This document shows positions 45,581-50,188 of a stretch of 64,000 nt of DNA, in pieces. The first letter of the stretch is position 1. Every line of letters starts with the position of its first letter. A program made the translations under genes and the position numbers. The notes beneath the pieces are model-generated. The model had not been told where the DNA came from and did not search any database. It saw only the letters and a program-made list of their open reading frames with translations. The stretch covers positions 248,001 through 312,000 of the forward strand of contig JAJLTO010000004.1 in assembly GCA_030568195.1 (NCBI GenBank), written 5' to 3'. Origin of the DNA: Dipodascopsis uninucleata var. uninucleata (Eukaryota > Ascomycota > Lipomycetes > Lipomycetales > Lipomycetaceae).

Positions 45581-46300
45581 ATAAAATCGGTCAATGTTAG
45601 TTGATGATTCTTTTTATTATCTTTTCATAACTTCTCAGAGAGAACGGACAAACAAAGCAGAAAATATACAATAGTCGATTCTTCAAAACTTCTCATTATA
45701 GACAGAATCATCAGGAATGGAAAAGTTCTTTGCTTGTATAAATTTTACTTTTCTCTGTGTATTTTGCTACCCATATTTCATATATTTCACCATTCAACAT
45801 ATCATTTTTCGCTTAACACCTCCTCTCATTGTTCTTCTTTTTGGTATTGGTTTTCGAAGTATACTATAACTTTATTCGGTCTGTTATTGATTATTGATAT
45901 GTCTGCTGTTTCTTTTTCCGGCTAGTAGCCGAGCTCTCACTGTATCATATAAATAATATATCACAGTTATCTTCATACCTCTGAAATACTCAATTTTATA
46001 AGGACGATTTAAGGTCGTAAAAGTTTCTACGAGTAAATATAATTTAATTACCTCGGTAAATAGACATACATTTCCTTATTATTAGAATCGAAACAAATTT
46101 CGTCAATTCTCATAGTACTACCATTTTTGAAGTCCACCACAACTTGCCTTTTACTTCAGTATTATATGCATATTACATGTTAACCTCAAGAATAATAGAT
46201 TTTAATAATATAACTTGAATAATTTAATAGTAACAAGTATTCAAAGAGTCATAGCGAATGAATCGATGCTCAAAATCAGAATTTGCTTTATAATTTCTGT
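45581..46300. other. Convergent intergenic region TIM17 / ARO1
   Basis: This 720-bp gap is important because it follows the ARO1 stop. It is AT-rich, has stops in all minus-strand frames at short intervals, and shows none of the shikimate dehydrogenase signatures (no KPIGHS, no VTIPLK, no NTD block). It is also shorter than the roughly 855 bp that domain would need. Confidence 0.6.
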
Positions 46301-49300
46301 TTATTCTGACTTTGAAATATCCCCAATTATTTCAGCTGCAGATAAAATCTGGTCAACTGAAATCTGCCCAGGCGCAGCCTTAGTAGGCAATAGGGGATGC
46401 GTAACTGGAGTCAAAGTCGAATTCAGCACCCTGCTGAGCTGGCCCTTAACTCCCATGTTAATAGCAATTAATGGTCTTTTTTTGTGCAACCGCCTGAACT
46501 CTTCAAGTTGAAAGTTGTCTTCCATAGAATCGGCCATACTAACGAATTTGATCACATCAGCACATCCAGACTGCAACGCAAATTGATATTTGTATTCCCA
46601 TTCCCTGTTCTTCCATTTATATTTTCCCGCAAAATCATGGTGAGAAAAGATCAGCTTACTGAATCCCCTCTCTTCCTTAATTTTTTCATGAATGATATCT
46701 GACCAGGTCATCTCTACATCAACGTACTCGACCCCGAGCTTCAAAGCTAGTAGCATTAACTCCATAGCTTCCTTAGCAGCATCATTTGGAAACTTACCAC
46801 CCTGAGCCTCAGATCTGACAGTGAAAATAATAGGCAAGGCAGTAACCTTTCTTAAAATTCCTATCTGCTCCTGAACATAATCGAGTGATGGTATCTTAGA
46901 GTAAGGTGCAGGCTTCAGTAAGTCAACCCTTAGTTCAAGAGCATCTACACCAGCAGTGACTGCAGAAAGAGTAGGAATCATGACAGACACATCCGGATAA
47001 GTCAAAGAGAGAAAAAAAGACTTTGGCTTTGAGATGATTAATTCATGGACTTTAGAAACGCCAGTTATAGTTTGAAGGTAAGATGCAAGAGTTTTCTTAA
47101 GCTGGGCTTTTTCACCATCATTTGAAAGCTGTGAGCTATAGAACATAGCATTAGAACACTCACTGAACCATTTCTCTCGTCGTTCCCAAACAGATAAAAT
47201 ATCGTCCGTATAACTTGGACGAGTAGTATCCACTTGAAGATAGTCAACTATAAGATTGATATCTCTGTGGACATGAATAACGAGACCGCCCGTCAAAGTG
47301 TACTCTTTGAGAGCATTTCGCGCTTCTTCTGTCTCAACGATACCGCCGCCGCAGGCAAATACATAGTCGTGTGTCTTTTCAGTCATGACTTCACGTAAAA
47401 TGTGATATTCCTCTATGCGAAAGCCATCCCAGCCAAGCTCCTTGATTATTTGAGGTATGTTCTTGCCTAGCTTCTGCTCGAGACAGTCATCTAGATCTAG
47501 AAATTTCATGCTCAAAGCTTCGGCAACCCAGCTACCAACTGAAGTCTTGCCTGCTCCTCGCATACCTACAACATAAATACTGCGTCCCTCATTTGGCTTA
47601 CGGGACGATGTAACTTCTACTTCGCTCTTAGTGGAATCATATCCCTGAAGTGCAACGTTAAACTTATAATTTAAAATATCCCACCATCCAGGCCATGTCT
47701 TTTCGACACATCTGCGATCAGTTATAAGAACATCTTCTGGCAAAGCGACACCAAGCAAGCTCATACTCATCGCAATTCTATGGTCATCGTATGTACGTAC
47801 ACCTTCTTTTGGTGATTTCAATTCTGAGATAGGCTTGCCGAATATCTTGATACCATCTGGGAGCTCGCTAGCCTCAACACCAAACTTTCCAAGTTCGGTT
47901 ACCATTGCAGTAATTCTGTTGCACTCTTTGACTCTCTGATTGGCAATTCCAACTATCTGAGTAGGCGTATCTGCATTGTCATGTGCGACAGCTGCTAGGA
48001 CACTTGCAGTCAGAAATGCATCAGTCATTGGTTCCATATCTATCAGCTGAAGAGGCTTCAAAGTACCAATTGGTGGCCCACAGACAGTAGTGGAAGTTTC
48101 AGTTTGTATTACATCACAACCCATAGGTCTTAGAATATCGATTGCAAACTTAGCATCGCCTTGAAGTGATCTTGATCCAATATTAGGAATAACACAGGAA
48201 GTTCCCGTAATAGCAGCGAATGCTAATGGATAGGTAGCAGAACTAGCATCACTTTCGATCACATATTCCGTAGGAGCAGTGTATACAGCTTTCTCAATAT
48301 GATAGGTGTAAGGTTCATCAGTTGATCTGGAAACATGAATACCGAAAGACTTCATCATAGCAATTGTCATATCAATATATGGAATAGAGACTGGTTTACC
48401 ACCAACTAAGGCAAGTGTCATATTTGTAGTTGCATATGGAGCGCACATGAGCAAAGCAGAGACATATTGAGATGATACAGTAGCTGCCAGTTCAACTCGA
48501 CCACCGCGGAGATGACGACCTGCGGAGAGACGAAGCGGTAAACTTCCAGTAGCCTCTAGATATTCCACAGAGGCACCATTTGATCTCAAAGCATCTACTA
48601 AAGGAGCAATAGGTCGCTGTTTCATTCTATTATTTCCCGTCAACAAGATGGTGTCAGAGTTAACAGAAGGCTCAGCAAGAGTACAAACGGCGGCCAAAAA
48701 TCTGGAAGAAGTACCAGAATTTCCAAGATATAGCTCGTTTTTTGGAGCGTAGAGTTTTCCACCCTTTCCTTGGACTTCTAGAACATCATTGCCATTGGCA
48801 TCCGTAGTCCATGAGAAGTCAGCGCCTGAGAGACTCGTAATAGCACTCATCATATGTTCAGTGTCATCCGAACGAAGAAGGTTATGCAACCTACAAGGCC
48901 CGGATGCTAAGGCAGCCAAAAGAAGAGCGCGATTAGTGATAGATTTCGAGCCTGGAGGCGTTACTGAAACGGAGACATCGGTGGAGAGCTTTGCGTCTTT
49001 AACAATAATATCTGACGACAAGACAACACGAATAGCATCGTCACTAACAACAGAGGCCTTCTGTTCATACGTTTTTCCAATTGCAGACAATAGAACAACG
49101 CATTTGTTTGATCCACTGTTCTTCTTATCGACTGCCATGATATTAAGCAGTGTATCGACAGGACATGACCTTGAGTTTGTACGCTTCTTTATAATAGTAT
49201 CGTTAGCTGAGATTGGAAGGCCATAAGCAATGAGAATCTTCACAATACGGGCGACAGTCGAATCTGATAGAATTCCTAAATAACGGGCAAGCTCTGCTTC

Positions 49301-50188
49301 TTTGACCATACCAATTGCAACACATTCACCATGGAGAATCTGAGGAGTTAAGATGGCTTCATAAGCATGACCAATCGAGTGTCCGAAATTAAGTAAATTT
49401 CGGAGGCCACCTTCACGTTCGTCAGCCGTAACGACATAGGCTTTCACTCTGATGGAGCCAACTACAAGAGCTGTAAGCATATCCTCAATTGGTTTGAGGT
49501 TAACAAAACCGGTCTTGGTGTCGCGGCTCTTGAATGCGGTCAAAAACTTGTCGACATTGGATTCCAGTCTGTCAAACTCCTTTTCGTCCCAGAAACAGGC
49601 AGTCTTGATGATTTCGGCCATACCATTTATGAATTCTCTCTCTGGAAGAGTTTCAAGGAATTTAAGATCAACAAAAACTCGTGCAGGTTGCCAAAAAGCA
49701 CCAATTAAATTTTTACCTAATGGTGTGTCAATGGCAGTCTTACCACCAATGGAGGAGTCAACCATAGACAGAAGAGTGGTAGGAATTTGGCAGAACTTGA
49801 TTCCTCGCATGAAGGTAGCTGCGACGTATCCAGCCATGTCACCAATAACACCTCCGCCAAGAGCAAGAAGAACAGTGTCCCTAGTGCATCTGTTCTCTAA
49901 CATCCAGTCTTCAATAAGCGCCTTGGTCTCTCGAGATTTAGAGGACTCGCCAGGCGGCACCATGTAAGACAAGAATCTGAAAGGTGTCTTGCTGCGCTCA
50001 AGGCCACGTCTGAATTCCTCTTCGAAACTTTTAACATGTAGTTTACCGATGTTAGTATCTGTTACGAGGACATACGTTGACGATTTGAGATCCTTAAGGA
50101 CTTCATCGACTAACGCCTGCATTAACCCGTAGCCGACCACTATGGAATCGCTACCGAGGATTGATACTCGTGTGCTCTCTGAAGTCAT
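46301..50188 (-). CDS. ARO1: AROM polypeptide lacking the shikimate dehydrogenase domain
   Basis: Intronless, 1295 aa. AROM carries out chorismate-pathway steps from DAHP to EPSP. Four domains are intact: 3-dehydroquinate synthase 1-390 ([11 protein letters not shown] at 111-121, [28 protein letters not shown]); EPSP synthase about 400-850 ([16 protein letters not shown] at 411, GNSGTSSRF at 489, [14 protein letters not shown] at 800); shikimate kinase about 870-1045 (P-loop GMRGAGKTS at 875, DLDD at 898, CGGG at 946); and type I dehydroquinase about 1060-1285 (catalytic His in FSHHDF at 1181-1186, Schiff-base Lys1214 in DVIKFV). The frame then reads [10 protein letters not shown], the usual linker, and stops at ISKSE. 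Saccharomyces Aro1 has 1588 residues; the missing part is the whole fifth domain. Gcn4-type sites lie upstream. Confidence 0.97.

Follow-up and report, generated by a model that had tools for sequence, protein, structure and literature searches.

Loss of the shikimate dehydrogenase domain from AROM in Lipomycetaceae and its likely replacement by an ancient AROM-derived paralogue

The DNA considered here is a stretch of 64,000 nucleotides (the window) from Dipodascopsis uninucleata var. uninucleata, a member of the early-branching yeast family Lipomycetaceae (Lipomycetes, Lipomycetales; assembly GCA_030568195.1, contig JAJLTO010000004.1, positions 248,001 to 312,000). On its minus strand, at 46301-50188, lies an AROM (ARO1) open reading frame (ORF) of 1295 codons plus a stop codon, free of internal stops, whose product has four enzyme domains and no shikimate dehydrogenase (SDH) domain. 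Two points go beyond the initial annotation of this locus: the loss is shared by the Lipomycetaceae examined, and the replacement is likely an ancient AROM-derived paralogue, not the excised domain. That annotation had assigned the gene to 45581-50188, an interval that does hold the AROM ORF, but the ORF itself occupies only 46301-50188 and the remainder is intergenic.

Reading from the N-terminus, the protein contains the domains of 3-dehydroquinate synthase (DHQS; residues 75-357 by Pfam span, 49118-49966), 5-enolpyruvylshikimate-3-phosphate (EPSP) synthase (EPSPS; residues 403-839, 47672-48982), shikimate kinase (SK; residues 877-1037, 47078-47560) and type I 3-dehydroquinase (DHQase I; residues 1059-1283, 46340-47014), all on the minus strand and all placed by Pfam matches and invariant columns. 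The Pfam matches were DHQ_synthase, DHQS_C, EPSP_synthase, SKI and DHquinase_I, with Fe-ADH_2 below its cut-off, and a Pfam scan of the 1295-aa protein returned no shikimate dehydrogenase model. The order DHQS-EPSPS-SK-DHQase I in one polypeptide is that of pentafunctional AROM/Aro1, as seen in the structures 6HQV from Chaetomium thermophilum, 7U5S from Candida albicans and, for DHQase-SDH, 5SWV from S. pombe. The D. uninucleata protein aligns with 6HQV from residue 3 to residue 1292. Unlike AROMs of the 6HQV/7U5S type, it stops at the linker and has no SDH domain. The stop falls 21 residues beyond AAPGQ, after a short C-terminal tail (46301-46339 with the stop codon, minus strand), at the place where five-domain AROMs in the alignment continue into SDH. 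The earlier statement that the frame is intact through dehydroquinase and stops at residue 1295 was therefore correct.

The C-terminal SDH was not found in the ORF, in the next 715 bp or elsewhere in the window. The 715 bp beyond the stop codon (45586-46300, no strand assigned) have 29.5% G+C and 11-22 stops per frame in all six frames, and no open stretch exceeds 63 codons on the minus strand or 105 on the plus strand. With one AROM SDH domain and the free SDH described below as queries, no SDH remnant above chance was detected in 44000-46310 (best E 1.1) or across the whole window (best E 0.80). It had been claimed that this stretch is too rich in stops to hold an SDH, and these results agree. 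The neighbouring gene is convergent with AROM and is marked by a Tim17-domain match (PF02466, 45263-45499, plus strand). Since one TAG falls inside the match, it probably crosses an intron.

Conservation of the remaining domains was assessed against 111 five-domain AROMs by counting columns that were at least 98% invariant (n = 450). The D. uninucleata AROM keeps 425/450 of these columns, with 157/165 in the DHQS part, 176/187 in EPSPS, 38/40 in SK and 53/57 in DHQase, in keeping with the earlier remark that those catalytic residues of the four domains that could be checked are present. The motifs that we take to be the active-site motifs of all four enzymes are present both by eye and by position. 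In a tree of the four-domain core (32 rows, quick method), the Lipomycetaceae proteins group with other Saccharomycotina AROMs, with a Shimodaira-Hasegawa-like approximate likelihood-ratio (SH-aLRT) support of 100, as expected from vertical descent. The D. uninucleata protein is a tetrafunctional AROM by descent from the fungal AROM, and its sequence predicts that it works as a four-enzyme polypeptide.

The AROM homologue set consisted of the best 120 of 2499 matching proteins, over which an SDH profile search was run. The SDH domain was found in 112/120 and was absent in 8/120. Seven of the SDH-less AROMs belong to named species, D. uninucleata, Lipomyces doorenjongii, L. kononenkoae, L. arxii, L. 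japonicus, L. oligophaga and Myxozyma melibiosi, and have 1294-1312 residues. The eighth, of 1112 residues, lacks the N-terminal Pfam domain and is 84.6% identical to that of Myxozyma. In all eight, the C-terminus lies at the same linker, no more than about 25 residues away from APGQ. The AROM and the free SDH described below both match D. uninucleata records with 100% identity. Loss of SDH from AROM is common to the Lipomycetaceae examined. The initial annotation had suggested a look at the AROM C-terminus in sister species, and the linker end recurs in six other named species of the family. With the intact ORF, the shared end point bears out its view of domain loss at a clean boundary and not of a decayed gene.

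The genome search for an SDH that it also suggested was fruitful. There are three SDH_N matches and one SDH_C match in the genome, and only one protein is complete with both, a free SDH encoded by a 298-aa ORF on contig 10 (343303-344199, minus strand). This protein matches TIGR01809 (NCBI Shik-DH-AROM) over residues 7-288 with 238.1 bits, above the cut-off of 196. Its ORF contains SDH models only; SK and DHQase models were absent from it, and it does not have the architecture of a QutR-type repressor. An AlphaFold2 model, with a mean predicted local distance difference test (pLDDT) score of 94.4 and a predicted template modelling (pTM) score of 0.92, was compared with the PDB by Foldseek, and the nine best matches were all AROM SDH domains. 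Among the best 120 of 6613 homologues there were 13 Lipomycetaceae free SDHs, from 12 species and five genera, which are 42-56% identical to the D. uninucleata query, self left out; relatives were found in Lipomyces, Myxozyma, Kockiozyma and Limtongia. In public records, those of Lipomyces chichibuensis (P0004, 293 aa) and Myxozyma melibiosi (P0006, 297 aa) are labelled 'putative pentafunctional AROM polypeptide', although they are free SDHs.

The residues that mark an AROM-type SDH, namely the Lys/Asp pair, the Ser/Asn/Gln residues and the NADP-site motif, are present in the free SDH and, the first Ser excepted, invariant in the family. Lys69, Asn90, Asp110, Gln266 and Ser22 are conserved in 12/12 free SDHs of the family, as are Gly137 and Arg162 of the cofactor site; the position of Ser20 is Ser in 8/12 and Thr in 4/12. 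The roles of these residues in catalysis, in substrate binding and in the NADP site are presumably those of their counterparts in AroE. By its profile match and residues the free SDH is of the AROM type and not a quinate-dehydrogenase relative. It very probably supplies step 4, and NADPH-dependent reduction of 3-dehydroshikimate is its predicted reaction. A bacterial AroE acquired by transfer was also considered and was dropped, the free SDH being under every listed aroE cut-off (best 163.1 vs 235).

Trees of SDH sequences were used to place the free SDH. The hypothesis of gene fission, in which a break of the ancestral Lipomycetaceae AROM at the DHQase/SDH linker would have released its SDH domain as the free SDH, was named before any tree; the approximately unbiased (AU) tests were run after the first trees had been seen. 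A first tree of 63 rows included two very long ones, the quinate-dehydrogenase-like and repressor-like proteins of D. uninucleata. For the 68-row tree these two were removed together with a Mycena partial sequence, Basidiobolus and Cetraspora fragments and eight thinned AROM rows, and 16 non-ascomycete AROM rows and two PDB rows were added. Free SDHs are represented by 12/13 from Lipomycetaceae (the second L. kononenkoae row was omitted) and by 20 named others. In this tree, the SDH domains of ascomycete AROMs, from Taphrinomycotina, Saccharomycotina and Pezizomycotina, form a clade (support 100/98). A second clade (100/96) unites the free SDHs of Lipomycetaceae and Pezizomycotina; within it, those of the Lipomycetaceae are one clade (100/99) beside the Pezizomycotina free rows. 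Forcing the Lipomycetaceae SDH to group with Saccharomycotina AROM SDH changed the log-likelihood by -77.75 (p-AU 4.12e-7); the corresponding values were -13.80 (p-AU 0.0205) for grouping with all ascomycete AROM SDH and -19.58 (p-AU 0.0123) for grouping with Basidiomycota AROM. When the Pezizomycotina free rows were left out, the Saccharomycotina constraint gave -46.26 (p-AU 7.2e-5), and the best tree set the Lipomycetaceae SDH beside all ascomycete AROM, with weak support (85/62). The clades and the AU tests together indicate that the duplication predates the split between Saccharomycotina and Pezizomycotina. By mean identity, the D. uninucleata free SDH is about as close to Basidiomycota AROM SDH (42.0%) as to Pezizomycotina free SDH (42.1%) and more distant from ascomycete AROM SDH (36.1%). 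For the Lipomycetaceae free SDHs the mean identity is 36.2% to Saccharomycotina AROM SDH and 43.4-43.5% to Basidiomycota AROM and Pezizomycotina free SDH. When the free SDH was compared with long proteins, no named ascomycete was seen among the five-domain AROM rows in the best 120 of 460.

In Geopyxis carbonaria, an SDH-bearing AROM (P0135) coexists with a DHQase-SDH paralogue (P0061), and the contigs that encode them are listed with the same length. The SDH parts of these two proteins share 40.5% identity; between the paralogue and the free SDH of D. uninucleata the identity is 43.6%. This two-copy state is what a replacement scenario needs. The paralogues of Tricharina (P0054) and Geopyxis retain a DHQase-I-like part next to SDH, and in Pezizales such two-domain proteins of DHQase-I and SDH occur beside a normal AROM. 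Repressor and free SDH are predicted as one ORF in five Pezizomycotina records (P0241-P0244, P0246), which indicates that their genes are neighbours there. In a tree with repressor rows added, the repressor SDH parts adjoin 18 Pezizomycotina free rows (95/97), and one subset of the Pezizomycotina free rows joins the Lipomycetaceae (75/66); deeper support in this tree, which has one very long row, is weak (69/39). One duplication of the AROM C-terminal half is suggested, without proof, to lie behind both the repressors and the free SDH. Among other records, P0255 (a Fusarium fujikuroi record, 853 aa) has a zinc-cluster transcription factor joined to a free SDH and is probably a gene-model fusion, while P0245 and P0247, the latter from a marine-protist transcriptome source, have two SDH domains in tandem.

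We strongly favor the explanation that these yeasts combine a four-domain AROM with an old AROM-derived paralogue as the step-4 enzyme, the built-in SDH having been lost as redundant. AROM would carry out steps 2 (DHQS), 3 (DHQase I), 5 (SK) and 6 (EPSPS). 3-Dehydroshikimate would leave AROM and be reduced by the free NADPH-dependent SDH (step 4), and shikimate would return. Long ago, part of the C-terminal half of AROM would have been copied; the free SDH would descend from this copy, which survives also in Pezizomycotina. While both copies existed, the built-in SDH would have been redundant; an ancestor of these yeasts would then have lost it at the DHQase/SDH linker, and the paralogue would have become the sole step-4 enzyme. 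We infer this order of events, and likewise that the free SDH is active, expressed and essential.

Several observations weigh against this explanation. The 63-row tree left the deep placement of the free SDHs at supports of 32-43. In the 68-row tree the monophyly of the Pezizomycotina free SDHs is weak (81/56), which would allow an old transfer from Pezizomycotina, and the branch joining ascomycete AROM and free SDHs is also weak (85/41); when repressor rows were added, the joint branch changed to a conflicting one (54/14). By these values, the duplication may lie on either side of the Ascomycota/Basidiomycota split. Ascomycete AROM SDHs are less identical to the other groups as well, which indicates that their clade evolved faster. 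Faster evolution could draw that clade together; the AU results speak against this as the full explanation. The AROMs of Kockiozyma and Limtongia are not among the best 120 of the 2499 homologues listed.

Fission, the hypothesis with which the tree work began, would account for the matching places at which the AROM ends and the free SDH starts, and for the AROM type of the latter. The free SDH does not, however, go with Saccharomycotina AROM SDH, with or without the Pezizomycotina rows, and is less identical to it than to Basidiomycota AROM or Pezizomycotina free SDH. Fission is rejected by the trees and AU tests under the model used, and we regard it as extremely improbable. In a horizontal transfer, the donor of the free SDH would have been a member of the Pezizomycotina or Basidiomycota, and AROM would have lost its domain afterwards. 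Among the best 120 of 6613 homologues, the nearest relatives outside the family are indeed Pezizomycotina free SDHs, and no other named Saccharomycotina is present; in the best 120 of 460 long proteins, the SDH domains nearest to the free SDH among named five-domain AROMs come from Basidiomycota and other non-ascomycetes. A Basidiomycota grouping is nevertheless disfavored by the AU test, and the Lipomycetaceae clade lies beside and not within the Pezizomycotina rows, although that separation is weak and one subset joins it when repressors are included. That single yeast lineages keep ancestral genes is, moreover, a pattern described in PMC4479816. Transfer is considered unlikely.

The other SDH-family genes of D. 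uninucleata are convergent neighbors on contig 16. One, at 97.3-98.3 kb (4304-5293 of L010, C16:93000-102900, plus strand), encodes a 329-aa quinate-dehydrogenase-like protein. The other is a 788-aa SK-DHQase-SDH frame resembling AROM-derived repressors (SK, partial DHQase I and SDH_N; 5576-7942 of L010, minus strand), which scores 126.2 bits with TIGR01809, below the cut-off of 196. Quinate and shikimate dehydrogenases overlap in substrate, and the 329-aa protein could in principle perform step 4 while the free SDH does something else; otherwise the organism might be an aromatic auxotroph. The 329-aa protein reaches only 137.2 bits with the same model, shares 28% identity with the free SDH and stands apart in the 63-row tree as a very long row; the free SDH is not itself a quinate dehydrogenase of the QutB/Qa-3 type. 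The initial annotation had expected step 4 from another gene, either a free dehydrogenase or a quinate/shikimate dehydrogenase relative: the first is found on contig 10, and the second does not hold (238.1 vs 137.2 bits). A search of the genome for type II dehydroquinase (PF01220) was negative, which leaves the classical set for quinate catabolism apparently incomplete. Auxotrophy appears unlikely, since retention of 425/450 invariant columns in the other four domains would be odd for an auxotroph, and taken together these alternatives are very improbable. There is, finally, practically no chance that the SDH part is missing from the contig only. The evidence comes from one assembly, which may be incomplete, and an assembly deletion had been put forward as the main alternative. 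It is excluded by the six other named Lipomycetaceae species, known from separate records, that share the architecture and the linker end; the window contains no N, a second AROM was looked for in the genome and not found, and no second AROM SDH was found anywhere in it.

No publication describing a free SDH alongside an AROM that lacks the domain was found among open-licence PubMed Central papers. In C. albicans, according to PMC9074039, the DHQase domain of Aro1 is inactive and the type II DHQase Dqd1 compensates, while active-site mutants of the Aro1 DHSD domain grow poorly or die, which points to the need for a step-4 replacement. Lipomycetaceae resemble this Aro1/Dqd1 system in that a gene outside AROM makes up for an activity that AROM no longer has. 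They differ in that C. albicans keeps the inactive domain and relies on a substitute of unrelated fold, whereas Lipomycetaceae lack the domain entirely and their probable substitute is a paralogue derived from AROM. Repressors of the QutR/TanX type, as presented in PMC10512348, are partial copies of AROM that comprise SK, DHQase and SDH parts and resemble the free SDH in origin; they are thought to be catalytically inactive regulators, in contrast to the free SDH, which keeps the catalytic residues. The retained ancestral yeast genes of PMC4479816 likewise group with Pezizomycotina and were lost by other yeasts, but the gene retained by Lipomycetaceae would substitute for one domain of an essential multi-enzyme. 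In a survey of 390 fungal EPSPS proteins, Shikimate_dh_N was found in 366 and loss of the C-terminal domain was speculated; whether the SDH function persists in a different protein was stated there to be not known (PMC9394408, main text). Lipomyces is not mentioned in that main text, and here the other protein is identified. The larger loss count given in that survey (PMC9394408) is for the Shikimate_DH model; in the present analysis this model scores even the intact SDH at only 26.3 bits, with a cut-off of 24.3.

A broader scenario is tentative and, in our estimation, rather doubtful as a whole. An early duplication of the AROM C-terminal half may have given rise to the SK-DHQase-SDH repressors, to the DHQase-SDH proteins of Pezizales and to the trimmed free SDH. 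In Lipomycetaceae, the trimmed copy may have returned to the essential pathway and taken the place of the original domain, ending the covalent link between steps 3, 4 and 5; it may still dock on the four-domain AROM.

AROM is the textbook multi-enzyme kept fused throughout fungi. For one family, the present analysis answers the question left by the main text of PMC9394408, where the SDH function goes when AROM is without the domain, and it indicates that a domain of an essential fused enzyme is replaceable by its own distant paralogue. Public records misname free SDHs, and pathway models of the oleaginous Lipomyces yeasts require a separate step-4 gene. A lineage that would run one middle step from a separate gene offers a natural test of whether fusion, through channelling or fixed stoichiometry, matters there.

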